A DNA stretch of 64,000 nucleotides, taken from contig OY987247.1 in NCBI GenBank assembly GCA_963920765.1, forward strand, positions 10,016,471-10,080,470. Reading direction: 5' to 3'. Positions within the stretch are counted from its first letter, which is position 1; each line of letters starts with the position of its first letter. The notes below the pieces were generated by a model. That model made no database searches and was not told the origin of the DNA. It saw only the letters and a program-made list of their open reading frames with translations. Of this stretch, positions 12,460 through 61,924 are shown in pieces. Origin of the DNA: Ulota crispa (Eukaryota; Streptophyta; Bryopsida; Orthotrichales; Orthotrichaceae). Both the position numbers and the translations under genes were made by a program.

Positions 12460-14228
12460 GACACTAATTGAGGGTAGTTGTAAGAAACATTTCATAGTTT
12501 TGTCTCAAATACCCTTAAAACTCAAACACCCTTAAAATTGGTAGTACTAGGTAGTACTATGAGCTTTTGAAATATATATATTTTAACCCCTAAAGGACCA
12601 AAGTCCCCTTGGGGGACTTTTGGGATTTCAGGCATGTACTTATGGCTAAACTACTTTGTGTAATTTTTTGAAACTTTTATGGAAGATGGGGAATTCAAAG
12701 ATCTGTGTGGGCATCTAGTTTTACCTCATTCCGACATTTATTGAAGAAGTTAAAAATGAATTTATGAGAACTTTAGTTTGGCGGGCAACCCAAAAACTTC
12801 TTTAAAATTTGCATTTTTTTAAGTAAAAATTTGAGGTTAGTTCTTTAGACTTATGTATATGTGGGAAGCTTTGAATCATTCAATTCTAATTGATGAGATG
12901 AAAGTTATAAGAAGCTTTAGTTTGCATGTAGGCATTGTTTTGAGATTCTCCACACCAACCCGCAAACTAAAACTTCTCATAACTTTCATCTCATCAATTA
13001 GAATTGAATGATTCAAAGCTTCCCACATATAAATAAGTTCAAAGAACTAATCTCAAATTTTTATTTTAAAAAAATGCAAATTTTAAAAAAGTTTCTGGGC
13101 TGCCTGCCAAACTAAAATTCTCATAAATTCATTTTTGACTTCTTCAATAAATGTCGGAATGAGGTAAAAATTAGATGCCCACATAGATCTTTGAATTCTC
13201 CAGTTTCCATAAAAGTTTCAAAAAATCACGCAAAGTAGTTTAGCCATGAGTACATGCCCAAAATCCCATTTGTCCCCATAGGGACAAGTGGTCCTTTAGG
13301 GATTAAATAAAATAAAATATGGAAAATTTGTAAAGCACTTAAAATAGCCTATTTGTGTAAATTCAAACCTAGAAAAAAAATATTTTAAAAGTTATGCACA
13401 AAAATAGAGGGACAGAAATTACCAAAAAAAAGACAATTTCCTTTTTACTTTATAGAAAACAAAAAATAAATAAATAAAAATAGTACAAAAAATGACCATT
13501 TCTGATTTCCCTCATTAGCTAGAACTAATGCAAGTACTTTTTGGAAGAAGGTTTTTGTCTTTCACCAATGGAGGGAGAAAGGATGCTCACTTTGAGACAA
13601 TGTGTAGGGCAGAGATTTTTGAGTTTTGTAAAATTGGTCTATAAATTTGTGTAATGATGCTTCCTAAACCACTACCTTGATTTGTGGCAGCAAACTCACT
13701 TTTTTGGACCCAATGTAGGGTCATTGCAAGAAACACTTCATTGTTTTGTGTCAAACACCCTTAAAACTAGTAGTACTAGGTAGTACTATGAGCTTTTGAA
13801 ATATATATTTTTTAAATAAAATAAAATATGGACAGTTTATAAAGCACTTAAAGTAGCATACTTGTGAAAATTCAAAACTAGAAAATTTTTATTCTAAAAG
13901 TTATGCACAAAAATAGAGGGCCAGAAGTCACCAACAAAAAGACAATTTCCTTCTTTATTTTTAAAAAATAGTAAAAAAATTCAAAAAGTAAAATAAAAAA
14001 TGGCCATTTTTGATTTCTCTTGTTAGCTTGAACTGATGCAATTACCTTTGGAAAAAAATGTTTTGGTCTTGCACCAATGGAGGGAGAAAGGATGCTCACT
14101 TTGAGTGAATGTGCAGGACAAAGAAATTGGAATTTTGAAAAACTGGTCGGTAGATGTGTGTATCTTTGCTTCATGAAGCTCTTCCCAAATTTGTGGGCGC
14201 AAATTCAAATTTTATGACCCAATGTAGT
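12460..14228. repeat. Tandem duplication of about 520 bp; first copy carries a transposon insertion
   Basis: Copy 1 is 12460-13718 (about 535 bp without the inserted element). Copy 2 is 13719-14228. Both contain the doubled tag 'gtagtactag/gtagtactatgagc', 'ataaaataaaatatgg' and 'accaatggagggagaaagga', and end near 'gacccaatgta'. Copy 1 has 12583-13306 inserted at TTAA. Copy 2 has the uninterrupted site with a single TTAA at 13812-13815. Confidence 0.85.
12583..13306. mobile_element. TTAA-terminated foldback element (GGACC subfamily), with empty-site proof
   Basis: It starts TTAACCCCTAAAGGACC and ends GTCCTTTAGGGATTAA, TTAA at both ends. The whole 724 bp is a near-complete inverted repeat with arms of about 350 bp (left 'ggcatgtacttatggctaaac', right its complement near 13240-13260) and a short loop near 12940-12955. 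There is no ORF. The unoccupied copy of the same flank is at 13812-13815. Confidence 0.9.
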
Positions 14229-14690
14229 ATTGAAAACCACCAAAACAGCAAAGGTAGACAAGCAATCTAAAACCAACAAAAAATACCAAAATCATTTTCA
14301 AACTTTTCCAAAAATCAAGGAACATTTGTAACTTCTACCTCCACCTTTGTTTAAACAATCCCACTTCTCAAGCAACAAATATGACCTATAACATGTTGCC
14401 TAGGGGGTAGGGGACAAAATGCAGGACACCCGTTTCTTGCAATGACCTTGTAGTACTAAAAACCCCCAAAACCACATGGGTAAACATGCAATCAGGGCCC
14501 CCTTATAAATAGAAAAATAATTTTAAAAACACCAAAAAAATTATTGAATGTCAATGACTTTGATGTTCACCTTACTCTGAAATTTCAGGTCATAAGAACT
14601 TGTTTTGCAAAAGATACGAGCCTATTACCTCCCGCCTGGGGGAGGGGGCATAATGTAATACAAGTGTTTCTTGCAATCACCCTTGATGGA
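14229..14690. repeat. Degenerate further copies of the neighbouring tandem unit
   Basis: Near 14405-14450 and 14640-14685 the sequence repeats a G-rich stretch followed by 'tttcttgcaatgacc' or 'tttcttgcaatcacc', like the unit junction at 13719 ('gtcattgcaagaaacac') in inverted form. Boundaries are unclear. Confidence 0.35.
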
Positions 14691-15931
14691 GATATTAACA
14701 TTAATTTGTGTGAATTGATAATATTGACAAAAATATAATTTGAACTTGTAAAGTTCATTATAGACATTTTCATGTGATACTTACTGTGTGTACATTAAGT
14801 TACAATTTAAAAATTTGAGACCTACTTGAAACTCAAAACTTTAATTATGACAAAATGTATAAACAAGGCAAAACATCAAATCATTAACATTTGAGACTCA
14901 CTAATATCTTTGCTTGCAAACATTTTTGGACTGAGATTCAATTGTTGTGTTTCAAACTCAAAACTTTGAAAAGCAATGCATTTTGCAATTCATGGTGGAT
15001 ATTGAATTCTTTTTAGTATAGAATAGATAATTGTTCTATACAAATCCAACCATTGTATCTCTTAAAGTCTAGTTCTTTGTTAGTGAAATTTCAAAATAGT
15101 CTATGATACATGAGATGTACTAATGCCAAACTTGGGAAGCAATTTGAGAGGCATCATTTGAAAAATTTTGGAAATTACTAATTCTAGAACAGCTTTTTCA
15201 TACAAATCCATTAGTGTGTTACATGATGTCTAGTTCTTTGCCAATCAAGAACACAAGTTTTGACTCAAATAGATTTTTAAAAGTGAGTATGCAACTTCAA
15301 TAAGCACTTTTAGAAGCATGGCTTAATAGATTCTAGAAATTTTGAACTTATAGTGTGTAACTTTTCATTTGAGTCCAACAACATACTACTCAAACTTTAA
15401 ATTTTTGTTGATTAAAATCCAAAATGTTGATACATGAAGTGTTTTGAGGTGAGCTCCATACTACTATCATACATGAGTTAGTGCAATACAAAAATTAATG
15501 CATATGATTGTATTTCATGTCACTTTTTCAAAAAAAATACATAAAGTAGTGCATGCAATAGTAAACACCATGTTTAGTGTAGTTTTTGATAACTTATAAG
15601 AAAAACATTTTCTTGAAATCATCCAAGACATTTTGAAATCTTTATTTTACCTTCCAACTAGAAATGTGCATTTTGTGATGCTAGTGTTAAATATTTGTAG
15701 TTTCAAATGCAAAAAAATGCCAAGAATCCTTTTAATGTATTGTTTGTTGTTGTATCACATGTATAGTGGGGTTGAATAAGTTTTTTTCCTTTCCCCTTCC
15801 TAGCACATTGTAAACACAACTCACAAATTTTAGCTATTGACCTGAAACCTAAAAACAAAATCCAAGAAGTATCTACAAAGCTATGCTTCAGAAAAATGCT
15901 TTATGATTATCTTTGGTAGGGATTTCACCAT
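14691..15931. other. AT-rich intergenic sequence, nothing recognised
   Basis: Only short open frames with no motifs. No terminal repeats seen. Confidence 0.4.
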
Positions 15932-16187
15932 TAACACCATATTCATTAAATTGGGAAAAATAGAGGTACCATTTTGTACTCCACCTTAAACCCAAAAAGT
16001 TACCTTAAACCAAATTTGAAGGTATCAGATTCAGTCCGAGCCACTAAGACTTTTTCCCTCACAAACTCCTCTCATGTGAGGGCACATGTACCAAAAAAAA
16101 TGCTGCAAGCTCAATTTCAGGTGATCACCTAAAACCTTCAGAAATCCCAAAATGTACTCTTTTTCCCAATTTAACAAATACGGTGTT
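15932..16187. mobile_element. MITE with TAACACCATA termini, copy 1
   Basis: Left TAACACCATATTCATTAAAT, right ATTTAACAAATACGGTGTT, an inverted repeat. CAT is duplicated on both sides (15929-15931 and 16188-16190). The second copy at 41540-41776 shares the interior 'ttcagtccgagcca' or 'tttagtccgagccag' and 'ttttttccctcacaaa'. A three-base target duplication fits PIF/Harbinger-type elements. Confidence 0.8.
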
Positions 16188-19252: not shown

Positions 19253-19905
19253 TTGACCCCTAAATGCCCAAGGCCTTTCTGAACTTTTTGGTATATTCAA
19301 GAAAGTGAACAATCAACCAACCATTTCATAAATCTCATCAAGTTGTTTGAAACTATAACCATACAAATTTAAATTGAACATGTTAGAGATTATGTGGAAA
19401 AAGAAAACACAACAATATCACTTATAGTTTAAAAGATTATAATGTTTGAACATGAGGGTGTTAAAACTGCAAAAGTGACTTCTAGTTTTCTAATCCTCAT
19501 TTCACATGTCAAATCTAAAAAGTTGGTCATCAAAAAAATATGAGGTTTGAGGTCATTACATGTTTAACCTCAACCAATTTACGGCTTTCAAAATCTACTC
19601 CTATATACTTTTTAAATGAATTTCTAATATGATCTTTTCTCCAAGCTCTAATGTATTTGAGGCTCATTTTCAAGATCTTCCAACACTAGAAAACTCAAGA
19701 TTGCAGTGGACACCCTTGTACAAAATCTTGAATAGAAAAATCATGAACATTCATTTCTGAAATCAGATTTTTGATGTTGAAAGTAAACTTCAAAAAAAAC
19801 TTGTGTTCAAAAGAAAATACCAAATATAGTGATTTGATAAGATTTTATTCATCTTCAACGTTTTGCAAACACCCAAATTGAGTTCCTTGGGCATTTAGGG
19901 GTTAA
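19253..19905. mobile_element. TTAA-terminated element, GCCCAAGG family, copy 1
   Basis: Left end CCCCTAAATGCCCAAGG preceded by TTGA (one substitution from TTAA). Right end CCTTGGGCATTTAGGGG followed by TTAA at 19902-19905. The interior matches 22098-22760, 51530-52180 and, in the other orientation, 40368-40993. Landmark words are 'catgttagagattatgtgga', 'cacatgtcaaatctaaaa' and 'cagatttttgatgttgaaa'. Non-coding. Confidence 0.85.
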
Positions 19906-22097: not shown

Positions 22098-22760
22098 TTA
22101 ACCCCTAAAATCCTAAATGCCCAAGGTTTTTTTTTAAGCTTCTAGGAATTTGCTCTAAACTAAACAAAAAGTCAACATTTTGATAAATTGTAATAATTTT
22201 TTCTAGATTATAATCGTACAAATTCAAACTAGATATGTTAGACATCACATAGGAAAAGAAACCACAACAACATCCCTTATGGATTGAAAGATTATAATGT
22301 TTGATCAAAAGGTTGTTAAAATTGAAAAAATGACTTTAAGTCTTTCAATCCTCTTTTCACATGTCAAATCTAAAATGTTGGTCATCAAAAAAAATATGAG
22401 GTTAAAGGACATAACATAAACAACTCCAATCCATTTATGGCTTTTCAGAATCTCTTTTATGATTTTTTAAAATGATTTCCTAGTGTGAATTTAATTCCAA
22501 ATCTAGTGTAATTGAGGCTCATTTTCATGAGCTCTCAACACTAAAAAAGCCAATATTGCAATGGACACCCTTGCACAAAATCTTGAATAGAAAATTCACA
22601 ATTAATAATTTTCAAAATCAGGTTATTGAAGTTAATAATAGACTTCAAAAAGAATATTTCTAAAACAATAAATTCTAAAAATATCACCTTAGTTAAGTTT
22701 TATTGAACTGCAAGATATTGTTGGCACCAAAACGTGGTGCCTTGGGCATTTAGGGGTTAA
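22098..22760. mobile_element. TTAA-terminated element, GCCCAAGG family, copy 2
   Basis: TTAA at 22098-22101 and 22757-22760. The right end is CTTGGGCATTTAGGGG. The left end has a short internal duplication (CCCCTAAAATCCTAAATGCC). Interior collinear with 19253-19905. Confidence 0.85.
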
Positions 22761-33503: not shown

Positions 33504-34422
33504 TTAACCCTAAAGGCTCAAGGAACCCACTTTGGGCTTTATGAGAACTCAGGCAAGCTTTATCGATTTCATAATTTGGAAATTTTTTATGAAATTTTTA
33601 TGATGGATGCTACTCATCATAATCTACATGTGAAGCTTTATTTCATGTCATTTAGATAAGTAATGCAAAAGTTATAAGGTTTTTTCAATTTCAATATCAA
33701 ACCAAGTAGCAAAAAATATATTCTAAATTTTTTTTTAAATTTTTTATAGAATTGTATAGATTGATACCTACTCAAAAAAAGTTGAATCACTCAATTCCAA
33801 ATAATGAGGTAAGAGTTACAAGGAGTTTTCTTTTGCGGGCAATGAAGGTAGGGAGAGGGTAGAAAAAACATATAAAGTTATCTTTTATTCTCAATTTTGA
33901 AAAATCACAAATGAAAATGAAAAATAAAGTTACTAATTGTTTGTTAGAGCATTTTCACCATTGGGATTAACAATTTTCAAATTCTTCCAAAACTTATTAG
34001 CATATTAGTTATATCTTTCATTCATCAATACCTTTCACTTTACAATTTTTGTAAAATTGAATCCAATTTTTTTTGGGTTAAACATTTTTATATATGCTTT
34101 CAACCCATTTTCCAACATATTGCAAAAATTACACAAGAAATACAACTTATGTGTCTTTTTCTAAAATGTTTGAAAATCAAAACTTCACCTTTTGGAAGGA
34201 TTAGAAAAACCTAAATTTTGAAGTTTAGGGACATTGATCTTGCAATTGGTGGGGATATTCATTCTGAAATTTTGGGACAATGTACTTGTGCAAGTCAACA
34301 AAAGGATCCTACGGTTGGATTTGTTTATAAGTAAGTTTCAATGAAGATTTTGACCCTGGTTTGGGGACAAGTATTTTGAAGCAATTTTGGGCCTCTAAAC
34401 ACAAAAGAATTTTAGGGGTTAA
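33504..34422. mobile_element. TTAA-terminated element, K family, copy 1
   Basis: Left TTAACCCTAAAGGCTCAAGG at 33504; right GAATTTTAGGGGTTAA with TTAA at 34419-34422. 919 bp, close in size to 42967-43894, with related words ('gagttacaaggag', 'cctacggttggatttg' against 'cttacggttagatatg'). No ORF. Confidence 0.75.
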
Positions 34423-39030: not shown

Positions 39031-39098
39031 TTAACCCCTAAAGGTCGAAGAGGACGATTATCGTCCTTTGGGTGCAAAAAAAACAATCTGGGGTTGGG

Positions 39099-39174
<76 letters not shown>

Positions 39175-39421
39175 ATTTATTAAAAAAATGGTCATTGCAA
39201 GGTTCTTCACCACGGAGTGTCAAAACTGGATTGATTGAAAGTCCTCATGTTTTTCAAAACTGAAATTTGTGAGAACATTCACAACCATGGTTGATAAGTC
39301 CTCTCTTGCCCTCTTACAAATTTCATGTGGGCAGCATACTACAGGCTGGGCACAGCCTGAGCACTGTAGCTGTACAGTGCAGGGCAAGGCACAGCTATGG
39401 GCCCAGGCGTTTAAGGGTTAA
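39031..39421. mobile_element. TTAA-terminated element, L family, copy 1
   Basis: Left TTAACCCCTAAAGGTCGAAG, followed by a perfect palindrome AGGACGATTATCGTCCT. Right CGTTTAAGGGTTAA with TTAA at 39418-39421. Collinear with 57770-58107. This copy has gained the AT dinucleotide tract at 39104-39171 and an insertion of about 30 bp containing GCACTGTAGCTGTACAGTGC. Confidence 0.85.
39104..39171. repeat. AT dinucleotide microsatellite inside the L1 element
   Basis: About 34 uninterrupted AT units. The homologous place in the other copy (57840-57860) has only a short A/T run, so the tract grew after the element was copied. Confidence 0.95.
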
Positions 39422-40367: not shown

Positions 40368-40993
40368 TTAACCCTTAAATGCCCAAGCGACTAGATTTGG
40401 GTCTTTACAAAACTTTGAAGATGAATAAAATCTTATCAAACCATTATTTTCAGTATTTTTTTTTCAATATAAGTATTTTTTGAAGTCTGCTTTCAACACC
40501 AAAAATCTGATTTTGAAAATGAAAGTTGATGATTTTTCTACTCAAGATTTTGTACAAGGGTGTCCACTGCAATCTTGAGTTTTCTAGTGCTGGAAGATCA
40601 TGAAAATGAGCCTCAAATACAGTAGAGCGTGGAGAAAAATCCACATTTGAAACCCATTTAAAAAAATGTAGGAGTTAATTTTTAAAACCGCAAATTGATC
40701 AGAGTTAGGCACGTAATGACCTTAAACCTCATATTTTTTTGGTGACCAAATTTTTAGATTTGACATGTGAAATGATGATTAGAAGACATTAAGTTACTTT
40801 TGCGTTACAATCTTTCTAACCATAAGTGATGTTGTTGTGTTTTCTTTTTCCATGTACCTCTAACATGTTTATTTTAAATTTGTACGGTTACAATTGAAAA
40901 AAACTTGATGAAATTTATGAAAAGGTTAATTGATTGTTGAGTCTCATAAAAGTTCCAAGAAGCTCAAATAGGCCTTGGGCATTTAGGGGTTAA
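40368..40993. mobile_element. TTAA-terminated element, GCCCAAGG family, copy 3
   Basis: TTAA at 40368-40371 (TTAACCCTTAAATGCCCAAG) and at 40990-40993 (CTTGGGCATTTAGGGGTTAA). The interior is collinear in reverse complement with 19253-19905. It is separated from the next element by only three bases. Confidence 0.85.
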
Positions 40994-40996: not shown

Positions 40997-42011
40997 TTAA
41001 CCCCTAAGCATCTTCCTAAGAAAATTCAGCATACCTCCAACATGAAACCTTCAAGACATTCCCGAAGTTTTTGGAAAGTTGAACAAGTAATCACTTAATC
41101 CAAACTGGTCATTCTATACCCAACTATAAATCAAATGTTTTAAACCTATTTGATTTCAAATCCAAGTAAATTTGCAAAATTCCCACCATTGAGAATCTCA
41201 TGTTTTCCAATTTGGGCAACAATTCAAAATATGGATGATGAACTTTCATGCAATATTCTCAAAAAATGAGATTTACCTAATGGCTGATCCCATGAGATTG
41301 TGTCTTGCTATACTTGATGGAAAAAAAAACTCCACAAATGGAAAAAAACTCCAAAAGATATGGTCATTCAAAGTAGCTAGATTCCACTAGCTCCTTACTT
41401 GAGAGCTAACAAAAACCTTGCCCAAATCAAGAAAAAAAAGTGACACATCACCAAACTTCTCCCTTGTATAATACAAGACATGAGAGCACCCATCCCATCC
41501 GCTCTCTAAGCTGCTCCCTTCATTTGCCCAAAGACATTCTAACACCATATTTGTTAATTTGGGAAAAATAGGTGTCCCATTTTGTATTCCACTTGAAACC
41601 CAAAAATTTATTTGAAGGTACTAGATTTAGTCCGAGCCAGTAAGTTTTTTCCCTCACAAATTCCTCCTCTCAGGTGAGGACACGTGTAGGTTTTAGGAGG
41701 CCACCTAAAACTTTCATATCAAAATATTGAAAGTCCCAAAATGTACAATATTTCCCAAATTAACGAATATGGTATTTTCTTCTCCTAATTGTTGAAAAAA
41801 TAGAATATTTTCTATATTCCATATTGAATCTAGAGCAAAGGAGGTGCTTCAAGGAACAACAAGTCGATCACAAATTTTCCTTGAACTAGCAACTCCATTT
41901 GGACTTGAGTGGCAGACCAAAAGTTGAGCTAAAAATGCCTCTTTTATATACTTCCATAACTCCAAGCACCCCCTTTGGCCATATTGGGCTCTCTGGTCCT
42001 TTAGAGGTTAA
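40997..42011. mobile_element. TTAA-terminated element, E family, copy 2 (carries a nested MITE)
   Basis: TTAA at 40997-41000 (TTAACCCCTAAGC) and 42008-42011 (CCTTTAGAGGTTAA). It is collinear in reverse complement with 25740-26477 except for the nested MITE at 41540-41776. Its right TTAA is also the left TTAA of the next element. Confidence 0.85.
41540..41776. mobile_element. MITE with TAACACCATA termini, copy 2, nested
   Basis: Left TAACACCATATTTGTTAAT, right ATTAACGAATATGGTATT. TTC is duplicated on both sides (41537-41539, 41777-41779). The empty site in the paralogous element near 25965-25980 has the same sequence with one TTC. Homologous to 15932-16187. Confidence 0.88.
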
Positions 42012-42781
42012 CCCATGAGCGCCCCATCATCCAGATTCTGGTCGCTCCAGATTTCAAAGGTGCATTTGTGGCACTAGATCTATTTTTTTTTTATCTTGCT
42101 ATAAACTACAATTATGAAGGCATTCAAGTTGTTTATGTCAATGGAGTAATGGCAAGGAAATTCAAATGTTGTACAAGTGTTGCAAGAGATTTGATTAGGT
42201 GAAACATCATACGGGGAGTAGTGGCACGCATACGGGGAGTGGTGGCAAGCAGGATTTTACAAGTTGCAACCGGTCAATATCCCATGCAAGCTTCTTTGAG
42301 GCAGCGGGAAGGTTGTTGGCAAGGGTTCAAGCATGTTCCATACCCTTATTATGGCAATCGTCACCAACTGTGCCAATCATTGTTTTCCGTGCAATAGCCA
42401 TTTGAAGCCCTAAAACTTGACATAAAAAGAAGTGCAATATTCAATAATTTACAAGTGTGTGCATTCACATCTAATCTTGTTGCTCAAAAAAGTTGAGATG
42501 AATCCATGGCTTATAGAATTTTGTAAAAATCATCATATAGCAACTACCTACCAAAAAATGAGATATTGTCATGACATGTTGTTTGATTAAATGTTATAAT
42601 CTCCCATCTCCCGCAATGAATTGTTCCAAAAATTTGCAAGCCATTTTCTAAGTAGGTGTTCTACAATTTTCAACGGTCACTTTTTGTGGATCATCTGATT
42701 GACCAAGATACAATGCATCAAAATCGTCGGTCTCCAAAAACGCTAATTTTGGTGAATACGGCCAGGGCACTTAAGGGTTAA
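42008..42781. mobile_element. TTAA-terminated element, D family, copy 2
   Basis: Left TTAACCCATGAGCGCCCC; right GGGCACTTAAGGGTTAA with TTAA at 42778-42781. Subterminal half-palindrome 'ccagattctggtcgctccag'. Collinear with 24618-25350. Confidence 0.8.
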
Positions 42782-42966: not shown

Positions 42967-43894
42967 TTATCCCCTAAAGGACCAAGTGTCTGTTCAACGG
43001 ATAAATGGGATTTCGGGCATGTGCCTAAGGCCAAACTACTTTGCATGATTTTTTGAAACTTTTATTAAAGATGGGGAATTTGAAAATCTATGTGGGCATC
43101 TAATTTTTATTCCATTTGATGCCAGGGAGCAAAAGTTATGCCCAAATAAGCACAAATTTGGGGACTCTGGGCAGAAAAGAAATCTTATAAAAATTTGAAA
43201 AAAAAATTAATTTTTTTCTCATAGATTATGTCTTTGCCTACATCTAAAGCTTTGGTTCATTCCATTTGGACTAGTTATGAGAAAGTTATGGACAATCTTG
43301 CTTTTTGGGCAGTTCAAGCATCTTTTTGAAAAATAACTTATAAACTTCATTTTTGAATGCAAAATTAACATTTTTTCAAAAAAAATTGTTGGAGAGGGTG
43401 AAGTTTGTTTTCTAGAACAATCTCACCATTGGGATGTTTGCATTTCAATTCCATTTCAAGGTTATTAGCAATTTAAGTTTTTGTTCAATCTCATACCTTC
43501 TTCTGCCTAACGTTTTTTTTAAAGAATGAAAATTAATTATTTTTTGTTTTTATTTTTTTCCCAAAATTACCAACTCAACTTCCCACCATGCAAAAATAGG
43601 ATTCCAAACTCTATGGTGCAAAAATTTTAAGTTAAAAGAGTTCAAAGTTAAATAATCTAGTGAGGCAAGGTGCAAATAAAGCTGTTTTTTACATTTTTAA
43701 ATGCAAATATCTTCCAACTTGTACAGTCAAAGTTCTTGAGTTTTGTATGACACATTCTTATAGTAGTCTAATACAAGATCTTACGGTTAGATATGCAAAA
43801 ATACTGATTTTCAAACTTTTTTACTCTTTGCCATAGAGGTGGTAATTTTGCCTATCTTTTAACAAAATAAAGACCATGGTCCTTTAGGGGTTAT
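42967..43894. mobile_element. CCCCTAAAGGACC element flanked by TTAT instead of TTAA
   Basis: Left TTAT-CCCCTAAAGGACCAAG, right GGTCCTTTAGGGG-TTAT: perfect 13-bp inverted termini with TTAT on both sides. The matching change on both sides shows that the four flanking bases are a target duplication and not part of the element. Interior as in the 12583 and 52325 elements. No ORF. Confidence 0.85.
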
Positions 43895-45121: not shown

Positions 45122-45671
45122 TTAACCCCTAAGCGCTCAAGTGACCATTTTCTGGTCGCTGCCCGTTTTTTGCGGGTTGCGCGAGACAAAAAAAAATTCA
45201 ATTTTTTTTTTTCTGTTTTTTGTGATAGAAAATCAAGTCTACTTTTCAACTTAGCTTGAATCATGTCAATCCAAGTTAAACTCCTCCAAAAAGAATTTTT
45301 CAAAAAAATACACTTTAATATTTGCTAGTGTTGTAGAATTTACTATTTCCAGAAACTAATAATGTTCCCTCCTTCCAAAAAATTAGCATTTTTGAAATTT
45401 AGGATAGAATGTCTATTTTTAACCAATCAAACCAAAATTTGAAATCTATGAGTAAAATTTGTAATTTTGGTGAATATTAAATGGTAAATGCTTCTAAATT
45501 CATTAAATAAAAGTACAAAGCTTTTTTTGGATATTTGACCATATGGATAATTGCTAAACATCATGATTATTATTTTCTCTTTTGAAACAAACTTCATTAA
45601 AGTTACAAGAGTATTTTTTTTTTTAATGCATTTACGTTTTGCCCTTACTCCCTCAGACGTTTAGGGGTTAA
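45122..45671. mobile_element. TTAA-terminated element, M family
   Basis: Left TTAACCCCTAAGCGCTCAAG followed by a subterminal palindrome (TGACCATTTTCTGGTCGC); right ACGTTTAGGGGTTAA with TTAA at 45668-45671. 550 bp, no ORF. The left terminus is preceded by a second TTAACCC. Confidence 0.8.
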
Positions 45672-46090
45672 AGGACCGCTTTACGTATTGGACAGTAAAT
45701 ACACTACTGTATAATTGGCATTTGCTACCAATAAAAAGTTTTGATTTGAGATCTTGACTAGCTCACTAGAATCGCATTAATCTATATTCTAACTTCTTTG
45801 TTGATCTCAAATATAATAAGGTGTGAATGCATTCCAAATGCAAAAGAATACGAAATACTGTATTGGCCGCAAAGGGCTCCTCGGTCGTTTAAGGGTTAAA
45901 AAGTTTATAAGAAATTTTGTCTCCCCTCCTGCAGCTGATTCTCGTTGCTAGCGGCCAAGTTGCAGCCTTGCAGGTAAGCTTATCGCTCGTGTTCCAATAA
46001 TTCACTGGCACCACAGTTGTTTGTGTGTTCGATTTTGGGACTTTCCTCGTGTAAAGGATCAACAGATTAGGGATGGAAGAGAAATATGTC
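45672..46090. other. Intergenic with one orphan TTAA-type right terminus
   Basis: At 45881-45899 the sequence reads TCGGTCGTTTAAGGGTTAA, a right terminus. No convincing left partner is seen; the element at 45122-45671 ends close by. Confidence 0.4.
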
Positions 46091-46474
46091 AGGTAGGCGC
46101 ACCCATAAGGTTTTGGAGTAGGTAAAACAATTGACTAACTTTGAAAAAAATACTGTATGTTAGGAAATGGAAATAAAAAATATTGGCATTAATTTTAAGG
46201 TTCCAACTGCAAGCATTTGTTCACAAAGATTTTTTGAAGTCCAAAATCATTGAAATTGTAGGAATCATGTGTAAGAGATGCTAATCACAAAACTCGTTGG
46301 TTCTTAAATAGTGAGATGGGTACTCAAAACCTCATGCTAGTCACCCACAACCATCACTTCATCACCCATAACCATCACTCAATCACCCACAACCATTTGT
46401 TTTTTTATTAATTAGCCTTGCCATTGTGAGGTGATGGGCATGGGGATGCAACGCTTATGGATGCTGCTACCTTA
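46091..46474. mobile_element. TAAGGTAG-terminated MITE, longer subfamily, copy 1
   Basis: Left AGGTAGGCGCACCCATAAG, right CGCTTATGGATGCTGCTACCTTA, inverted. Collinear in reverse complement with 56381-56778, including a short tandem array of 'atcacccacaacc' units at about 46340-46395. No ORF. Confidence 0.8.
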
Positions 46475-47522
46475 CTAAAAAAAGATACTCTTGAGCATGG
46501 TTTTTTTGGAATTTTCTAACCAATGGCTATGTGGCATTCTTTGAAAATGTTTGTAACTTGCAAGTTCCATCCCTATTTTTGGTTGTAGTTGAAGGTGGCC
46601 CTTATGCATGATATTTTATAGTATCATGGTTATTCATAATGAAATTATGGAGAAATTGGCACAATCAACATTTTTGACGGTGTCTTTGGATCATAAAATG
46701 ATGACATCAATTCTCATTTTGATAAGACTTTTATGATAGCCTAGGTTGCAATGCAATTTTCATTATTGTAATCTGGCTTCTTTTTTGATTTTTTCCTCAA
46801 ATTTTTCCCCCTTTTCTTTGTGGGCTTCAAACTCACTTTTTTTCCCAAGGCAATTGGTCCTTAAATTGCCAAAAAAAAACCCTATTCTCAAGTATTATTA
46901 TTCTTAAATGCGTTGTGACTTAGAGTGGCTAGTTAGGTTTTTGCACTAAAGTCTCTCTTTCTTAGATCCAATTTTTTTCCAAAAAGTGCTGTTATGTACA
47001 CTAAATAATGCATTTAAGTTGCCCCACACTGACTTCTTGACATTCTACACTGTATAAAAACTTCCTAGAATTGCAATAATTTCCATTTATAACTACTGCA
47101 ATAGACAATATTTAAGGAGCTTGAAAACAATAACAAAGTTGTAGAAACAAAGTAGCGGCATTCATGTCATAAACCAAATGAATTCCTAATATTTAGAAAG
47201 TTGCATGTGTCCCCAACTGGTCAAACAATGAGTCATGAGGAAACTTCTTAGAGTAAGGCAACCTAATTGTCAAGGCAACCCAAATGCACTATATAGTGGA
47301 GGTGTATTAAGGTGAATTGGGACGTTGCATAGTGTGAAGTTCAATTCATAATTCCAAATTTTAGCTTCTCAAACGTGTCAGGTGTTAAGAATTAAGTGGG
47401 ACTTAGAACTTATAATAAAAGAATAAAAGTTCACTCTTGTATGAAAAAGCAGCTTGAATCAATGGTCATGGACTAAAAGGGCATAATTTCATCTTTGATG
47501 CCTTTGTGAGGGTACATTCACT
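46475..47522. other. Intergenic repeat-like sequence, no gene seen
   Basis: Shares words with 59400-59600 and 49900-50140 ('agtgggacttag', 'ttttttgccaaa'), so probably part of a larger dispersed repeat. Borders unclear. Confidence 0.35.
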
Positions 47523-48542
47523 TTGATTCCTAAACGCTCAAACAATGTTTTTTGACAACATAGCAATTTTGGGCAGCTCATTACAAATGGGTTTCTCATT
47601 TTTTTTTCTTTGAAATTTTCACACATGATGCACCCAAGGAGTAGCTTTAATGTCCAACAATTTTCATAACTTTTGACTACATGGTTCAAAACTTATTGCA
47701 TGATATGTAGTTTTATTTGTTTGTTGGGCAGCATGGGTAGCTCAAAAAACTTTTTCAAAAATTATATTACAAAAAAAAACCAAAATTGGTTTCCTAGATC
47801 CATATATACGTGGGAAGCTTTGAATTGTTCCATTTTTATAGTTGAGATGAAAGTTATGTGGAGATTTTGTCTGCGGACAATTATGGATTCTCTACTCTAA
47901 AATAAACTTTTAAGTCCTTTATTTTACTCAATTTTCAATGTTTTGGAAATAAAAGAGAGCCAGAGGATGTAGATTTTTTATTACAATGTCACAAACATTG
48001 GAATTGGCGTTTTTTATTTTCATAGGACTGAGGGCCCTTTTGGGGGACATTTGGGATTTTGGGCATGTACCTATGGCTAAACTACAGTACTTTGCATGAT
48101 TTTCTGAAACTTTTATTGAAGGTGAGGAATTCATAGATCTATGTGGGAATGTAATTTTTTCTTCATTCCAACAATTATTGAAGAAGTTAAAAATAACTTT
48201 CTGGAAAAAGCTGCTCCTAGGGCAACCAAAAACTTTTTTTTAAATTTCATTTTTTTCTAATAAATATCTGAAATAGGTTCTTTAGACTTATGTAGATGTG
48301 GGGAGCTTTGAATCATTCAATTCTAAACAATGAGATGAAAGTTATGAGAAGTTTTAGTTTGCTGGTAGGTGTGGTTTAGAGCATAATTGTTGGAATGAAG
48401 AAAAAATTACATTCCCACGTAGATCTATGAATTTCTCACCTTCAATAAAAGTTTGAGAAAATCATGCAAAGTAGTTTAGCCATAGGTACATGCCCAAAAT
48501 CCCAAATGTCCCCCAAACTGACAATGGTCCTTTAGGGGTTAA
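47523..48542. mobile_element. Composite TTAA-type element, N family, copy 1
   Basis: Left TTGA-TTCCTAAACGCTCAAAC (decayed), right GGTCCTTTAGGGG with TTAA at 48539-48542. The first half is collinear with 60311-60500 ('tttcacacatgatg', 'cccaaggagtagcttt'). The second half (about 48015-48542) is a foldback of the GGACC subfamily with arms of about 250 bp around 48365. Confidence 0.75.
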
Positions 48543-49308: not shown

Positions 49309-49388
49309 TTAACCCCTCAACGCCCCGGGTATCAAGAAGAACACTGAAATGGGGCAACATTCTTGCCCCTAGGGCGTTGAGGGGTTAA
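49309..49388. mobile_element. 80-bp TTAA-terminated mini-element
   Basis: TTAACCCCTCAACGCCC at the left and GGGCGTTGAGGGGTTAA at the right: 17 bp of perfect inversion including TTAA on both sides, with only 46 bp between. It sits four bases after the end of the preceding element. Confidence 0.85.
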
Positions 49389-50139: not shown

Positions 50140-51068
50140 TTAATCCTTTAAGGACCACACCCATTTTCACAAAACCAACTAAAAACAGGGGCTGTAGGCT
50201 TAGATGTGCAATTGACTCAAGTATGGACCCATTTTTCAGTAATCCAACCATATAAATGGGAAGTACACCTTGTTTATTGTGAAGCACCAAAATTTCAGCT
50301 AGATTTACTGTTGGAGGTGAAATGTTATAATGATTGAGTGAGCTTGAGAGTGAGCCCCATATGCAAAAAATCTCTAGTGTTCATGCTTGTGTGGTCTTGA
50401 ATGTTAATGCTTCATGCAAGCTTTGATTGAAAAAAGCCTTACATTTCTAGAAAGCAAGGTTTCCCACCTTTACAATAAGACTAATTTCACACAAAATAGA
50501 CAAAAATAGCAACCACAAGGTGTAGCTAAGTGGACAAAAATGGTCAAAAAACCCACTTTTTTTGCTACCCTAAAACGGTTCTACAAGAAATTTGTTAACT
50601 ATTTTGGAAAATCCAATTGGTGAATACAATCAAGAATTGGCCTTAAATGTAGGATGAAAAATTTTAGAACCAAAATGACAACACTAAATCAATGGATCTT
50701 CAAATACTATAATTATACTACTACCGTATAGGAAAACAATACAAGCATATTTCTTAAGCAATTCAATTTTTTTTAGAATTGTGCAATTGAGATTTGACAT
50801 TCTTCTTGCATACTTGATGTATTATGTTGTTGCTTTGATCCATTTTTGACAAAAAATGGATACGTATTTTGAAACCATGCCGTATAAACACCATTATTTG
50901 TCAACTCACATACCCAATTGCATTGTTATTATTTTAGATGGATGCAAAATTCTTGTGATCACATGCGTTCTTCAAGACCAAATTCTAAATTACTGAGCAA
51001 TTTCAACCTACATGTTGAAAATCACTCCCAAAAACCAAAATATGGTCGCTTGGTCCTTAAAGGGTTAA
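50140..51068. mobile_element. TTAA-terminated element, S family
   Basis: Left TTAATCCTTTAAGGACCA, right TTGGTCCTTAAAGGGTTAA, with TTAA at 50140-50143 and 51065-51068. 929 bp. The interior shares no long words with the other families. No ORF. Confidence 0.8.
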
Positions 51069-51529: not shown

Positions 51530-52180
51530 TTAGTCCTTAAATGCCCAAGCCCTAGCTGAGCTTCTTGGAATTTCCATAAAACATAACAATCAACCAACCT
51601 TTTCAAAAATTTCATAAAGTTTTTTTCAATTGTAACCTTACAAATTTAAACTGAACATGTTAGAGATTATATGGAAAAAGAAAACACAACAATATCACTT
51701 ATAGTTTGAAATATTATAATGTTTGGACATGAGGGTGTTAAAATTGCAAAAGTGACTTCTAGTTTTCTAATCTTCATTTCACATGTCAAATCTAAAAAGT
51801 TGGTTACCAAAAAAATATGAGGTTTAAGGTCATTACCTGTTTAACTTTAATCAATTTACGGCTTTCAAAATCTACTCCTATATATTTTTTAAATTAATTT
51901 CTAATATGATCTTTTCTCCAAGCTCTAGTGTATTTGAGGCTCATTTTCAAGATCTTCCAACATGGGAAAACTCAATATTGCAGTGGATACACTTGTACAA
52001 ATTCTTGAGTAGAAAGTTTATCAATTTTCATATTCAAAATCAGATTTTTGATGTTGAAAATAGATTTCAAAACCAACTTATATTGAAAAAAAATACTGAA
52101 AATAGTGATTTAATAAGGTTCATTTGTCTTCAAAGTTTTGTTGCGACCCAATTTTGGTTGCTTGGGCATCTAGGGGTTAA
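51530..52180. mobile_element. TTAA-terminated element, GCCCAAGG family, copy 4
   Basis: Left TTAG-TCCTTAAATGCCCAAG, right CTTGGGCATCTAGGGG with TTAA at 52177-52180. Interior collinear with 19253-19905. It lies inside sequence homologous to 55920-56250. Confidence 0.8.
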
Positions 52181-52324: not shown

Positions 52325-53179
52325 TTAACCCCTACATGATCATTGTCCCCTTAGGGGACAAATGGGATTTTAGGCATGTACCTATGGCTAAACTACTTTA
52401 TGTCATTTTATGATACTTTTATGGAAGATGAGGAATTCAAATATCTATGTGGGCATCTAATTATTCTTCATTCCAACATTTATTGAAGAAATTATGCAAG
52501 AATTCATCAAAACTAAGGGAGGAGGGGTAGTTTGGGCAAAGCCTCTCCTTTGTAAGTGGGTGTAGGTGACTCCAAAGAGGGTCAGCCATAGGTGTGGACA
52601 CTTGGGCAAAGGGAGTGGAGTGGAAGAAGCCTATCTTGTGGGACTCCCAACCCTCCATTCCTTTTGCCCCTTGTAAAATTTGGTACTTTCATTTTTGAAT
52701 CAATTCATGTATGTGTTATTTCATTATTTTTTTTCCCAACCATAGTAGGCTAAGAGCCCTTACCATATCTATTTAGATTAATGTATTTCAAATATTTAGA
52801 TTTTACATAAATCCTTCAATTACACTTCCAATTTATCTGAAAGTTCTCCCACATACCTAACTTGGTCTTTTACATGGAAAAAATAAACCTCAACTTTTTG
52901 TAGAGTAGTTTTTTGTTGTAAGAATGATCAAAGGCTTCTGAAATTTTTGGGCAATAGGAAAAAAAACCTTTTTTCTTCACTTTAAATGTTGATATCACAC
53001 TCCTCACCATCTGAAATGACATGTTGTTTTTTTGCAAGTACCACCCATATTCTAAGCCAATATCCAATGGTCTTATTTATTTTTTAACTTTCTTTCTTCT
53101 ACTTGTCTATTCATTCTCTAAAAAGTGACAGTTTTCAATGATTTTCACAGAAAAAAGGGCAAGGTCCTTTCGGGGTTAA
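52325..53179. mobile_element. TTAA-terminated element, GGACC subfamily
   Basis: Left TTAACCCCTACATGATC followed by the hairpin GTCCCCTTAGGGGAC; right AGGTCCTTTCGGGGTTAA with TTAA at 53176-53179. 855 bp. The left part matches 12600-12800 and 48060-48200; the right part matches the window-start element. Confidence 0.85.
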
Positions 53180-55010: not shown

Positions 55011-55421
55011 TTAACCCTTTAACGACTAGTCGACCAATTCTTGGTTGATATTGACTCTTTTCAGTTTGTAGAGAGAGCATGTTAAGGAATTTGATGACGT
55101 GGCAAAGGGGACAAGTTTGGGGAATTAGAAAGTGAAGAGTTTAGGACAATAAAGAGGCCAATCTGAGATGGCATGTGGCTAGAGGGTTGAAAAAACTAAA
55201 AAAGTACCGACTGAGAATACACCAATAAATGCAAAAAGGTGGACATAACAACTAAAGAGTGAGCATAATTCATAATGCATAACACTAAACACTGCAAGAT
55301 ACTTCCATCTGTACGGTTAGATTTATGATAGACATCTATATTCAATAACCCTAAAATGTCCCCAAATGGAAATACAAAGGATTGTCCACCCCAGAATCGA
55401 CCACTGTCATTAAAGGGTTAA
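55011..55421. mobile_element. TTAA-terminated element, V family
   Basis: Left TTAACCCTTTAACGACTAG, right GTCATTAAAGGGTTAA, with TTAA at both ends (55011-55014, 55418-55421). 411 bp. The subterminal words CGACCA and TCGACCAC are inverted partners. No ORF. Confidence 0.8.
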
Positions 55422-55908: not shown

Positions 55909-56380
55909 ATGTCAACTATCTTAGGAGGTTGTGGTCCAAGGTGAAAAAATAAAGCTTTTTCATATTTCAAAAATTTTGAGCATTTGGAAATTTATCATCA
56001 AGAGATTGAAGTTGGAAATTTTGACCTCGTAATTGGATTAGAGACCCTTGTTTTCAAAAGCCACCTCGTTTAGTCAAAAGCCACGGAGGAATATATAATT
56101 GAAAACTACAAAAAAGGGGGCAAAATATTACTTTTACCCTTGCCTGAGAATTAAAAAGTTTAACCTTGGCCAGAATGGATAGAATCCAGCGGCCCCATTC
56201 ATCTATGCAGGGGGCATTGAGGGGGTCAGTTCACCCTGCCCGCACAACAACATAAAAACAACAGGAATTTTTGTGGTATACCGTACCTAGGGTTCTCTAA
56301 AGTCCAAATACTTATTCTTTTCATCAAGTTTTTTGTATTATAAATAACATTTCATTCATTTTCTGAGAAAGTTCAATATA
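55909..56380. repeat. Dispersed repeat, paralogue of 51300-51530 plus 52181-52280
   Basis: Shares 'ttcaaaaattttgagcatttgg', 'aggttgaatttggaaatttt'-like sequence and the GGCCCCATTCAT end. In the paralogue the 51530-52180 element interrupts the equivalent of about 56150-56160. Confidence 0.55.
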
Positions 56381-56778
56381 TAAGGTAGTAGCATCCATAA
56401 GCGTTGCGTCCCCATGCCCGTCACGTGACAGTGGCAGGGCTAATTAATAAAAAAAGAAATGATTGTGGGTGATTGAGTGATGGTTATGGGTGATAAAGTG
56501 ATGGTTGTGGGTGACTAGCATGAGGTTTTGAGTACCCATCTCACTATTTAAGAACCAACGAGTTCTATGATTAGCATCTCTTACACATGGTTCCTACAAT
56601 TTCAATAATTTTGGATTTTGAAAAATCTTTGTGAACAAATACTTGCAATGAGAACTTTGAAATTGATACCAATATTTTTGGTTCCCATTTCCTAACATAC
56701 AATATTTTTTCAAAGTTAGTCAATTGTTTTACCTACTCCAAAACCCTTATTTCCACGCTTATGGGTGTGCCTATCTTA
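56381..56778. mobile_element. TAAGGTAG-terminated MITE, longer subfamily, copy 2
   Basis: Left TAAGGTAGTAGCATCCATAAG, right CGCTTATGGGTGTGCCTATCTTA. Collinear in reverse complement with 46091-46474, including the 'gggtgattgagtgatggt' array. Confidence 0.8.
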
Positions 56779-57180
56779 CTCAGATATTTCCACAATTCCA
56801 TTCACCGATCTGCAATGAAGTTTGCGTGGGATCCTGGAAATATGCTGGATATGAGCAGGAGGAGAACGTCAAAGCTCCCCACTGAGAATATAACAGCCAG
56901 GTTCCAGTGTTCTGATTGGTACGGAGCATTTTCAATGATAGAAATATTCACTTGGAATAGTGTTAGATTCTTTATACAGACATGGGGTCCACGTCTCCAC
57001 GAGGCGAAAGCTATGGATTGGCAATTTGGCAGTATGCCCACATATGCCTGGAATGGCCTGACAGTTCACACAATGAGAAACACGTTGTAGTGGAAGCAGT
57101 TTTTGAATTGTATAATTTATGCGCATGTGCATTGGAATTTGCTTCCATCTCTAGAGATACCAAGTAGCTCTACAACCCGG
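56779..57180 (+). other. Exon-like patch of unknown identity
   Basis: About 400 bp of GC-richer sequence with open frames on the plus strand. The last one (from about 56982) reads YGLAIWQYAHICLEWPDSSH, then EKHVVVEAVFELYNL, and stops at 57165. The composition is protein-like and helical, unlike the surrounding repeats. I do not recognise the family, and no splice sites or start are convincing. A gene fragment is my best guess. Confidence 0.25.
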
Positions 57181-57310: not shown

Positions 57311-57311
57311 T

Positions 57312-57388: not shown

Positions 57389-57390
<2 letters not shown>

Positions 57391-57769: not shown

Positions 57770-58107
57770 TTAACCCCTAAAGGTCGAAGAGGACGATTAT
57801 CGTCCTCTGGGTGCAAAAAAAACAATCTGGAGTTGGAAAAAAAAATTTATTATTTGATTTTAAAAAAAAAGTGGTCATTGCAAGGTTCTTCACAATGGAG
57901 TGCCGAAATTGGATTGATTGAAAGTCCTCATGTTTTTCAAAACTGAAATTTGTGAGAACATTCACAACCATGATTGATAAGTCCTCTCTTGCCTTCTTAC
58001 AAATTTCATGTGGGCAGCATGCACTATTGACTTTTTCCACTTTTTGCAACAATACTACAGGCTGGGCACAACCTGAGCAGCTATGGGCCCAGGTGTTTAA
58101 GGGTTAA
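57770..58107. mobile_element. TTAA-terminated element, L family, copy 2
   Basis: TTAACCCCTAAAGGTCGAAG at 57770 and GTGTTTAAGGGTTAA ending 58107. Perfect subterminal palindrome AGGACGATTATCGTCCT. Very similar to 39031-39421 without the AT tract. Confidence 0.88.
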
Positions 58108-58379
58108 TAAAAAGTCAGCCTTACAAAAGTGACAAAAAACTTGGATTTGAATCCCCTGAGAGTACACTCAAACCAAAGGGGGTATATGAAACTCTTGAGG
58201 TTAAGATTTCAAACTCTTATTCAATGTTCCTCACCACGTAGTCAAATTTTGACCATCATCCACTATGGCATATGACATGGCTAGTAGGTTATATCTCAAA
58301 CTTGTGAGGGTTGTAATTTGTTCCATGGGATTTTACTTTTCAAAATATATAAATTATGAAGCGGAATAGTGAGGGTAAT
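58108..58379. other. Older repeat flank, no gene seen
   Basis: Continues after the element at 58380-59272 and resembles 49400-49560. Confidence 0.35.
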
Positions 58380-59272
58380 TTAACCCCTCAAGGCCCAAGC
58401 CCAAATTTTCTGGAAAAATACCAAAAAACTGTCATTTTCAGTGTTTTGATTCAAAGAACTTTTTTTTGAATTTTTACAAGTCTAACTGTAGATCTTGCAT
58501 AGGAATTATGCAAAGAGCCATAGTGAAATCTTCACACGTTTAACCATACGGATTGAGAGGTTTGAGCGTTTGAAGTTGGTGTAAAAAGTTTTTTTGATCT
58601 TTGCCCAAAGTTCTCAGGTTCCTTTGACCATATGTGGTGAACATTTTTTGCAACATGGGTGTTGTAGAAAGTTAACCAACATGCTCTAAATCATGTTAGG
58701 CATGTCTCCACCAATTTTTAAGGTTATCAAAGACATGGGGCACACCCTACATGGCCTTGCATTGCAAGCATGGGCTTGAAATTTTCATAATACTAGGGTT
58801 GTTTGCAAACTAAATTTTTGAGGGATGATTTAAACATATAAAAATCCAAACAATGTATGAAATGATTTTGACTTCTTAGACAACCAAAAAAAAAGTTTGA
58901 AAAAAAATCATATCTTTGTTCGCTATTGCAATTCAAAAGTTAGTGTATTTATCAAATACAAAAATGAATTTATCTAGTACACTATTGCTTTTGGTGTATT
59001 CCAATGAAGGGTCATGCCTTCATTGGTGACCCTTGAGAGAAGTCAACAAAATTTGGTATGTCCAGCTTGCCCCTTGAACAAAAAAAGCACATAAAACACC
59101 TATATCTTTTGAATTGTGAACCCAATTTCAACAAAAATGTACTCTCGCATAACCCTTGCAAAACTCTATTTCATAAATAAAATTCAAATTTTTTGATAAA
59201 AACTTCCAATAGGAAAAGCTTGCCCAAAGCCCATATTGTCCCTCATAGGGACGATGGGCTTTTAGGGGTTAA
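58380..59272. mobile_element. TTAA-terminated element, W family
   Basis: Left TTAACCCCTCAAGGCCCAAG; right GGGCTTTTAGGGGTTAA with TTAA at 59269-59272. A subterminal hairpin GTCCCTCATAGGGAC lies 30-45 bp from the right end. 893 bp, no ORF. Confidence 0.85.
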
Positions 59273-60306
59273 ACACCTTACAGAGCGTGTGATCTTTTTG
59301 ATTCCATGCTCACACTTTGAAGGTCATCTTTCCCCTGTTTGAGTGAATGAACTCTCAAAAGGGCAAAAATGAATGACAATTTGTTTTTGTTCTTGCTTTG
59401 AGCAAGAAAAACTGTTGGATATTGACTCTTAGATTAGGTTTCCATCATAGCTACATTTGGTTCTTGCAATTAAGCTCTCTTGTTTTTTTGCCAAAATTTC
59501 CAAATTGTGCTACCATGTAAGCATTTGTAAGGAAATTTAAATTTGGGGCTTGGAACTTAGTGCTAGGCTACAAAGTGATTTTTTTTGCTCTCTATTGTTG
59601 GAGAGAGATTTTACTTCATATTGTTAATATATCAATTTCAAGTGTCATTTGTAATTTATGTATGCGTTATACAATAAAAATCAATGTTAATGATATGTTA
59701 TTATTCAATAATCGTTGTAACAAAATTTGAGACAAATAATCAGTAACATTAGACATAAAACCAATAAAAATACTGAAACAAATACAATAACATTTGTACT
59801 TGTTATTGTTATGATGACTTTAAATTCTTCTGCGAGGATTTTTTAATCCATAATGTTTTATACAAATCTTTAAAAGAATTTAGTAAATAGTGTAGACAAC
59901 CTAAACTTTTCAAGTAAGGTTGTTTGCTCTAAAATCATCACTTAAAGGGCTAGTTTGCATTTTGATGGGCTTTTTAAGACAATAAGAGTTTTTGTTTAAT
60001 TTTAGACAAAGGGAAATGGATGCTAAATGTAACACAATTTTTTTTCATATTTTTTGAAGCATAATTGAATTGTTGATGAATTTTCAAAATTTTATGTAGT
60101 AGGCACCTATTTGTGATTCTAGGTCTCCCATAAACTGTCCCCGTGCAACTTGTGAAGAGATGAATGAAATTGAGGAGTATGATTGGCTCTTGCAATAGAA
60201 AGCACCTTTCTTTCTCTAACTTGGAGGGTCCAATTCAGGATCACTTCATATCCATTCCTGAGCTACCTATGGGGTGCTTCCTTTGAGAAGGTTGCAAGTA
60301 GAGCAT
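59273..60306. other. Intergenic repeat flank, no gene seen
   Basis: AT-rich; partly paralogous to 46800-47500 and 49560-50140. Nothing coding. Confidence 0.35.
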
Positions 60307-61924
60307 ACTACCCCTGAAGGCCCTAAACAACGTTTTTTGGCAACATAGTAATTTTGGGTAGCTCATAACAAACATATTTTTCATTTTTCTTTCTTTGAAA
60401 ATTTCACACATGATGTGCCCAAGGAGTAGCTTTGAGGTCCCACAATTTTCATAACTTTTGATTACATGGTTCAAAAGTTATTGCATGATACACAATTTTC
60501 CTTGAACTCTAGGCAACCCGGGCACCTCTGAAAACTTCATTAAACATTACATTTAAAATTTAGAAAATTTGAAGTTTGTTCTTTAGATTAATCTATATGT
60601 GAGAAGCTTTGAATCATTCCATTTCAATCAATGAGATGAAAGTTATTAGGAGTTTTAGTTTGCAAGTAGATATGGAGTCTCTCATAACCATATCTACCAA
60701 CAAACTAAAACTCCTCATAACTTTCATCTCATTGATTGAAATTGAATGATTCAAAGCTTCTCACATAAAGATAAATCTAAAGAACCATTTCCAAAATTTT
60801 GTTTTTAAAAATTGTAAATTTTAAAGAAGTTTTTTGGGCCAACATGCTCCTCCTCCTCCAATTTCAATTCTTGCATAACTTCTTCAATACTTGTTGGAAT
60901 GAAGAAAAAAAAAGATGTCCACGCAAATATTCAAGTTCTCCATCTTCCTTAAAAGTTTTAGAAAATCTCACAAAGTAGTTTAGTTGTAAGTACAATAGGG
61001 TATAGGCTCCTTATAAATCACCAATTTGAGCCAGTCGGCTTTTTTTTATTAAAACATGGAGTATAATTGGTCCATTTTGGTAGGAAAAAACATCATTACA
61101 TCCTTATGTAGTATAAAGTAAGTGTACCAAATTTCAGTTCCTAAAAACAAAAACTCCAATTTTGGTGAATTGTTTTGTAAGAAATTCATGGTTTTACGTG
61201 ATAATTTATTGAAAAGCATTGGTGATGAATTTATGAGATTTGATTAAATAAATATGTAGGAATCGTCCATACGCACATCTTCCATGCTAAAAAAAACCCG
61301 CTTAAGTAACAAAAACTTTACTAGCAAAAGATTCAATGAAACTTGTGGTAGGCCCATATTTTGTAAAATAAATATTTTTGTTTGTCAACTAGCTTTTCAT
61401 CAAGTAAACAAAACATGATGTTTAGAGATACAAATTTAATTACAATGTTTGAGTCAAACAACAAAATTTGATTTTCAAAGAAAAATATGTATTTTACAAA
61501 ACTTGGGCCTACCACAAGTTTCATTGAATCTTTTGCTAGTAAAGTTTTGGTTACTTAAGCGGTTTTTTTTAGCATGGAAGATGTGCGTATGGACGATTCC
61601 TACATATCTATTTAATCAAATCTCAAAAATTCATCACCAATGCTTTTCAATAAATTATCACGTAAAACCATGAATTTCTTACAAAACAATTCACCAAAAT
61701 TGGAGTTTTTGTTTTTAGGAACTGAAATTTGGTAGACTTGCTTAGTATTGCACAAGGATGTAATGATGTTTTTTTCCTACCAAAATGGACCAATTATACT
61801 CCATGTTTTAATAAAAAAAAGCTGACTGGCTCAAATTGGTGATTCGTAAGGAGCCAAAACCTAAGTGTACATGCTCAAAATCCCATTTATCCCTCGAGGG
61901 GACAATTGGTCCTTTAGGGGTTAA
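60307..61924. mobile_element. Composite TTAA-type element, N family, copy 2, with nested foldback
   Basis: Left ACTA-CCCCTGAAGGCCC, right TTGGTCCTTTAGGGG with TTAA at 61921-61924. The interior matches 47523-48542. It carries its own inverted repeat around 60690 ('tagtttgcaagtagatatgg' against 'ccatatctaccaacaaacta') and a nested 0.87-kb foldback at 60995-61861. Confidence 0.75.
60995..61861. mobile_element. Long foldback element, MULE-like, nested in the N element
   Basis: Arms of about 410 bp, nearly identical, around a centre near 61425: 'ccaatttgagccagtcggct' at 61021 against its complement at 61822-61841, and 'acgtgataatttattgaaaa' at 61196 against 61648-61667. It is flanked by TAAGTACA (60987-60994) and TAAGTGTACA (61862-61871). 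The uninterrupted family sequence reads 'taagtacatgc', so the flanks are an 8-10 bp target duplication. No transposase. Confidence 0.75.

Follow-up and report, generated by a model that had tools for sequence, protein, structure and literature searches.

Probable piggyBac-type miniature elements with TTAA-flanked CCC termini and their transposase-bearing relatives in a plant genome

We analyzed a stretch of 64,000 nucleotides (C6:10016471-10080470, called the window below) from a plant genome assembly of 274.8 Mb in 157 contigs. In this window, an earlier examination of the letters alone (the sequence-only reading) had noticed many elements with inverted termini flanked by TTAA, and had proposed that they are miniature inverted-repeat transposable elements (MITEs) driven by piggyBac transposases. 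Our results support this proposal through DDE_Tnp_1_7 domains found in elements with like ends, a common terminal sequence and a TTAA target duplication. We are confident that the window elements are non-autonomous MITEs of the piggyBac superfamily, and that the DDE_Tnp_1_7 transposase is encoded elsewhere in the genome, in full-length relatives 5-6 kb long. They have the properties of MITEs, being short, present in high copy number and devoid of a transposase, with ends in common with transposase-bearing elements.

Inverted termini in the window and in the genome

The window contains 35 matches to TTAACCCCTAAA with at most one mismatch, compared with a mean of 0.66 and a maximum of 4 in 100 dinucleotide shuffles. 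The left ends listed in the sequence-only reading were all found at their coordinates (15 of 15). By scanning both strands and comparing the terminal 16 bases of each element, we identified a right end at TTAA for 13 of these 15 positions, with terminal matches of 9-15 out of 16 bases, of which matches of 9-11 are weak if taken singly. Accordingly, the claim that 15 elements are flanked by TTAA and have inverted termini stands for 13 of them; the other two are taken up with the adverse evidence below. Three further elements have two ends with an altered TTAA (19253-19905, 42967-43894 and 51530-52180), and the 16 paired elements together occupy 9,545 bp, or 14.9% of the window. When TTAA pairs were counted in the window without a bias toward the terminus, the signal was weak (15 pairs for TTAA vs 29 for AATT, at 12 of 16 bases), and the same count restricted to CCC-CCC pairs gave 3 for TTAA and 0 for eight other anchors. 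As the window-only pair count is weak, we used genome-wide counts of the terminus as the basis instead.

The exact terminus TTAACCCCTAAANGNCCAAG occurs 8,413 times in the genome (4,206 and 4,207 times on the two strands), while its reversed-pattern control occurs 0 times; the looser pattern TTAACCCYTNANNGNCC occurs 31,318 times, with 9 occurrences of its control. These counts amount to some 15,000 element-equivalents, a figure that misses decayed ends. Relative to the genome average, the window is enriched about 2.3-fold (17 vs 7.3), and scaling its coverage by the terminus density gives a rough genome share of about 6%. Relatives of the element at 40368-40993 are found on many contigs: with the best 40 of 3,900 candidate places scored, 30 of the 44 listed alignments (the element itself included) span its positions 1-626, and the other listed copies are 80-89% identical to it.

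Transposases and the elements that carry them

As the sequence-only reading had stated, the window does not appear to harbor a transposase, as far as tested: a tblastn search with 20 transposases of the same genome returned no match in it at E 0.01. In the genome, by contrast, the model PF13843 (DDE_Tnp_1_7) has at least 120 matches, all over the cut-off and with a best E-value of 1.3e-73, when the best 116 of 528 candidates were scored. The same kind of search returned 39 matches for the hAT dimer (89 candidates) and 54 for MULE (74 candidates), a comparison that is rough, as the models differ in length and the hAT dimer model is shorter. The description of the genome as dominated by piggyBac is therefore supported by this rough comparison, against hAT and MULE alone.

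We sampled the transposases at 20 loci of 10 kb each (designated by L numbers). A 476-aa frame from one of them (L018) matched the T. ni piggyBac transposase (6x67, E 4e-20) and piggyBat (9c0f, E 6e-17) in a phmmer search of the PDB; its first and second catalytic Asp regions align to T. ni piggyBac and the third to piggyBat, the third Asp being replaced by Asn. Using substitution-tolerant expressions, we found the first, second and third Asp motifs in 13, 18 and 17 of the 20 loci, respectively, and the WW motif in 19; the expressions are incomplete, since additional first motifs can be recognized by eye. A catalytic Asp has been lost in some copies, such as L010 and L018. A Pfam scan of six open frames upstream of the transposase yielded none over the cut-off and one sub-threshold match, and some of the upstream frames continue into the transposase's own N-terminal part. 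Introns may split the transposase frames in L027 and L028, each of which has two PF13843 matches and extra in-frame sequence.

The strongest evidence that the transposase lies inside TTAA-ended elements is the homology between L020 (5,308 bp) and L023 (5,230 bp), which are 89-93% identical up to a TTAA at both ends, and whose flanks have a single 62-bp match, located away from the ends. Moreover, the ends of L012, located 5,746 bp apart, agree at 15 of 16 bases; the homology of L012 and L022 stops at one common end, within 3 bases; and the right ends of L011 and L022 each agree exactly with the terminus consensus given by the sequence-only reading. The check that this reading had suggested, a search for DDE_Tnp_1_7, thus came out in its favor, the domain being abundant in the genome and located inside elements with TTAA-CCC...GGG-TTAA ends (L012, L020 and L023). 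When every TTAA to the left of the transposase was combined with every TTAA to its right, with no CCC required, a pair starting with CC or CT ranked first at 13 of the 20 loci. In a mechanical test for end pairs (TTAAC...GTTAA, 4.5-6.5 kb apart, at least 12 of 16 bases matching), 9 of the 20 loci passed, compared with 30 of 380 combinations in which the halves were swapped between loci. One of these nine pairs, L022:1065-7354, is false, and we rejected it: its left "end" belongs to a neighboring 941-bp fold-back MITE (L022:1065-2005) of the same group as the window element at 12583, while the true left end of L022, homologous to the right end of L012, is not intact. Without L022, 8 of the 20 loci pass (binomial p 8e-5 vs the swapped halves, and 0.006 vs the window rate given below).

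Some window elements also resemble transposase-bearing elements in sequence internal to the ends. In a blastn comparison of 12 assigned transposase elements with the window, the terminal 592 bp of L011 aligned to 58380-58966 (72% identity over 599 columns, E 6e-80). L012 matched 63907-63992 with its final 86 bp (81%), and L013 matched 55389-55421 with its final 32 bp (88% over 33 columns, E 6e-4). Near the point where the match between L011 and 58380 begins, we detected no second terminus. A further link through the first 1,000 bp of L022 was dropped, because those matches stem from the adjoining fold-back MITE. By these similarities, the kinship with transposase-bearing elements extends past the 16-base terminus for at least two window elements, and probably for three.

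Several observations weigh against a piggyBac origin of the window elements or against the evidence used for it. First, the end-pair test at 12 of 16 bases was passed by 16 of 106 pseudo-centers in the MITE-rich window, and this rate, together with the case of L022, means that single end pairs can arise by chance. Eight of the 20 loci (L015, L017, L018, L019, L021, L026, L027 and L028) failed the test even at 10 of 16 bases, and in the window the positions 33504 and 40997 reached only 7 of 16 with the single partner tried for each. Second, the left end of L011 is poor (10 of 16), and its last 592 bp could be a truncated MITE lying beside the element. Third, a Cys/His C-terminus pattern was found with one expression in only 4 of the 20 loci. 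Fourth, although 14 control genomes had no PF13843 match, they appear to be prokaryotic (those named are), hence their zero counts carry little weight. Finally, only 10 of the 120 listed PF13843 matches are free of in-frame stops. As most listed transposase matches contain stops and the element copies compared have diverged (78-93% identity, among the best matches listed), the piggyBac amplification looks old.

The sequence-only reading had concluded from the shared termini that one transposase moves many passengers. A single transposase lineage mobilizing all the families would agree with the common pattern CCCYTNANNGNCC that the ends follow; however, we consider it improbable, as the 20 sampled transposases have a median pairwise identity of 36% (minimum 28%), and this median indicates several diverged lineages rather than one. 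In addition, the end variants go with the transposase lineage, end similarity tracking transposase similarity with a Mantel r of 0.52 (p 5e-5, n=14, L022 excluded). The correlation was 0.49 when L023 was excluded too (p 1e-4, n=13), 0.37 when three tentative elements were also left out (p 0.009, n=10), and 0.38 when L011 was removed as well (p 0.013, n=9). In the window, elements of the CCCCTAAATGCCCAAG type have ends nearest to those of L012 and the right end of L022, while the ends of the CCCTTTAA-GACC type are nearest to L013 and L028. To us, this points to several lineages of transposase, each apparently with its own MITEs. In such a system, a lineage-matched transposase would bind the CCC termini of a MITE in trans, excise it at TTAA and join it to a new TTAA site, and each of the several lineages would have served the MITEs bearing its own terminus variant. 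Some MITEs may have been derived from full elements via internal deletion, while others may have retained compatible ends only.

Target duplication and families of the window elements

In one nested case, a copy of the 40368 family is inserted inside another copy of its own family (C1:10642427-10643078). The outer copy reads ...aatgatc-TTAA-[insert]-TTAA-acctcat..., whereas the uninterrupted copy in the window reads ...aatgacc-TTAA-acctcat...; the target duplication is therefore exactly TTAA in this single nested case examined. One window element (42967-43894) bears TTAT on both flanks. Occasional non-TTAA duplications are reported in a passage of PMC10813416. Genome-wide, the exact CCCC terminus is preceded by TTAA 8,413 times vs 381 times by [ACG]TAA, so that the first T is nearly fixed and the specificity extends over four bases.

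This specificity by itself would also fit MITEs of another TTAA-specific superfamily, such as Kolobok or Sola3, which duplicates TTAA, the presence of piggyBac transposases in the same genome being a coincidence. Kolobok likewise duplicates TTAA according to the portion of PMC9587614 at hand, but the same portion describes its ends as 5'-RR...YY-3', whereas the elements here start with CCC, and so with CC in place of RR. As the DDE_Tnp_1_7 domain lies within elements with these very ends, and some MITEs have subterminal sequence in common with them, we regard such a coincidence as very unlikely.

The window also harbors palindromic elements of about 320 bp with ends (A)GGTAGGAACACCCATAAGCG, located at 3940-4261 and 5203-5513, with relatives at 46088-46475 and 56380-56779. 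We had considered the first two as Kolobok-like (TTAA-GGTAGG...CCTACC-TTAA) and rejected this assignment, since the first base is free genome-wide: [ACG]TAA precedes the GGTAGGAACACCCATAAGCG terminus 5,316 times and TTAA 3,952 times (at most 2 mismatches, the counts overlapping), and related copies carry GTAA or ATAA at that site. They probably represent a MITE family with a TA target. As its first base is free, the specificity test can separate TTAA-bound cases from those of the TA type. It is thus scarcely credible that the elements of the CCCC families tested are Tc1/mariner MITEs (TA, Stowaway-like) or PIF/Harbinger MITEs (TTA/TAA, Tourist-like) with a merely apparent TTAA duplication, for although both are common classes of plant MITEs, TTAA contains TA, TTA and TAA, and the palindromic family too appears flanked by TTAA, the CCCC terminus has its first T nearly fixed and the nested copy has an exact TTAA duplication.

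Returning to the putative piggyBac MITEs, blastn placed the 16 elements in ten groups, seven of them with a single member, which is near the figure of about eight families of differing interior given by the sequence-only reading. The first multi-member group contains 40368-40993 (626 bp, plus strand), our reference copy for the empty-site comparison, and three elements on the minus strand: 22098-22760 (663 bp, 72% identity), 19253-19905 (653 bp, in inverse orientation, with TTGA on the left and TTAA on the right and a 16/16 terminal match) and 51530-52180 (651 bp, TTAG on the left and TTAA on the right). In L041, a copy of this family carries an insert of about 277 bp with inverted ends ACCTCATA...TATGAGGT and TCTAA-like repeats beside it, which is a different element.

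The fold-back group consists of the piggyBac-type MITE at 12583-13306 (724 bp, TTAA on both sides, 13/16), the element with TTAT on both sides at 42967-43894 (928 bp, 15/16), a possible non-TTAA insertion, and 52325-53179 (855 bp), which is kin to the fold-back MITE L022:1065-2005 and not to the transposase element adjoining it. Right ends alone were assigned for two further members on the minus strand, TTAACCCCTAAAGGACCATT at 48531-48542 and TTAACCCCTAAAGGACCAAT at 61913-61924, the latter closing a member of the 12583 fold-back group, and the right end (1-243) of an element cut by the window edge matches L022:1065-2005. The third group pairs 39031-39421 (391 bp) with 57770-58107 (338 bp), both on the plus strand.

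The single-member groups begin with a piggyBac-type MITE of 79 bp at 4258-4336, which has the ends CCCCTAAGCGCCCAAG and TCCTTGAGCGCTCAAG and TTAA on both sides, and abuts the different family at 3940-4261. TTAA is also found on both sides of 42008-42781 (774 bp, 10/16), 45122-45671 (550 bp, with a right end at 45899 fitting equally well) and 49309-49388 (80 bp, 14/16). The element at 50140-51068 (929 bp) has ends of the CCCTTTAAGGACC type, as in the transposase loci L013 and L028. The similarities to transposase-bearing elements described above concern the final 33 bp of 55011-55421 (411 bp; L013), the 58380-58966 part of 58380-59272 (893 bp, minus strand; L011), and the first 86 bp of an element left end at 63907-64000 (plus strand; L012), which runs off the window. 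Beside these elements, the window has a tandem array with the 16-base unit TTTTTACCCACGCAAG in 13.1 copies (63436-63644), and a PPR-like gene with introns (7528-10467), judged by eye from its open frames.

Host genome, comparison with known systems and significance

That the host is a plant, as the sequence-only reading had assumed, is well supported by 56 chlorophyll a/b-binding matches in the genome, a (CCCTAAA)n array that opens contig C2, and the PPR-like gene recognized by eye in the window. A moss is likely: by single-domain score, an LHCII gene is closest to PDB chains 8htu_U and 7xqp_a of the moss Physcomitrium patens, although chain 9vfj_2, whose two domains lie in tandem, scores higher in sum. 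A cluster of eight chlorophyll a/b-binding matches with high scores lies at C4:21.39-21.77 Mb. The CCCTAAA unit of the array on C2 also sits inside the MITE terminus, hence thousands of MITE ends might be taken for isolated interstitial telomere repeats.

PiggyBac is known above all from animals, and serves as an imported tool for genome engineering. The elements described here resemble piggyBac of T. ni and piggyBat in their TTAA duplication, CCC...GGG ends, DDE_Tnp_1_7 domain and matching catalytic Asp regions, and possibly in a Cys/His C-terminus, the pattern of which was seen in the 4 of 20 copies mentioned above. They differ in that several lineages occur within one plant genome, and in that the full elements are about 5-6 kb long, compared with 2,472 bp in a passage of PMC10813416. 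Short non-autonomous copies lacking a transposase are likewise known in animals, as a passage of the same paper notes in citing work on corals, and the titles of papers indicate cases of piggyBac-related MITEs in insects; here, in contrast, they populate the nuclear genome of a plant, with 31,318 recognizable ends.

The presence of piggyBac in plants is not new, and is already in print: excerpts of PMC8086355 state that piggyBac-like elements are known in fungi, plants and animals and have PF13843 in common, PMC4438587 in the part consulted counts PiggyBac among the superfamilies present in every group studied, and PMC6890710, likewise in part, has 1,230 PiggyBac entries, or 0.00% of the assembly, for a fern. 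Our searches of the open literature, which covered part of it, turned up no moss in which piggyBac is described as abundant. On balance, we incline to the view that this land plant, which is probably a moss, has piggyBac as its leading DNA-transposon superfamily, that the piggyBac lineages radiated in parallel with their own terminus codes, and that they left some 15,000 or more recognizable non-autonomous insertions, a scale undescribed in plants.

Plant MITEs are usually expected to be of the Stowaway and Tourist kinds, an expectation on which abundant piggyBac MITEs in a plant would bear. If true, native piggyBac at such a scale would be a source of natural, plant-resident transposases, and the many paired terminus variants would provide material for testing how the recognition of ends by transposases evolves. 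It would also call for caution, since imported piggyBac vectors might interact with the resident ends.

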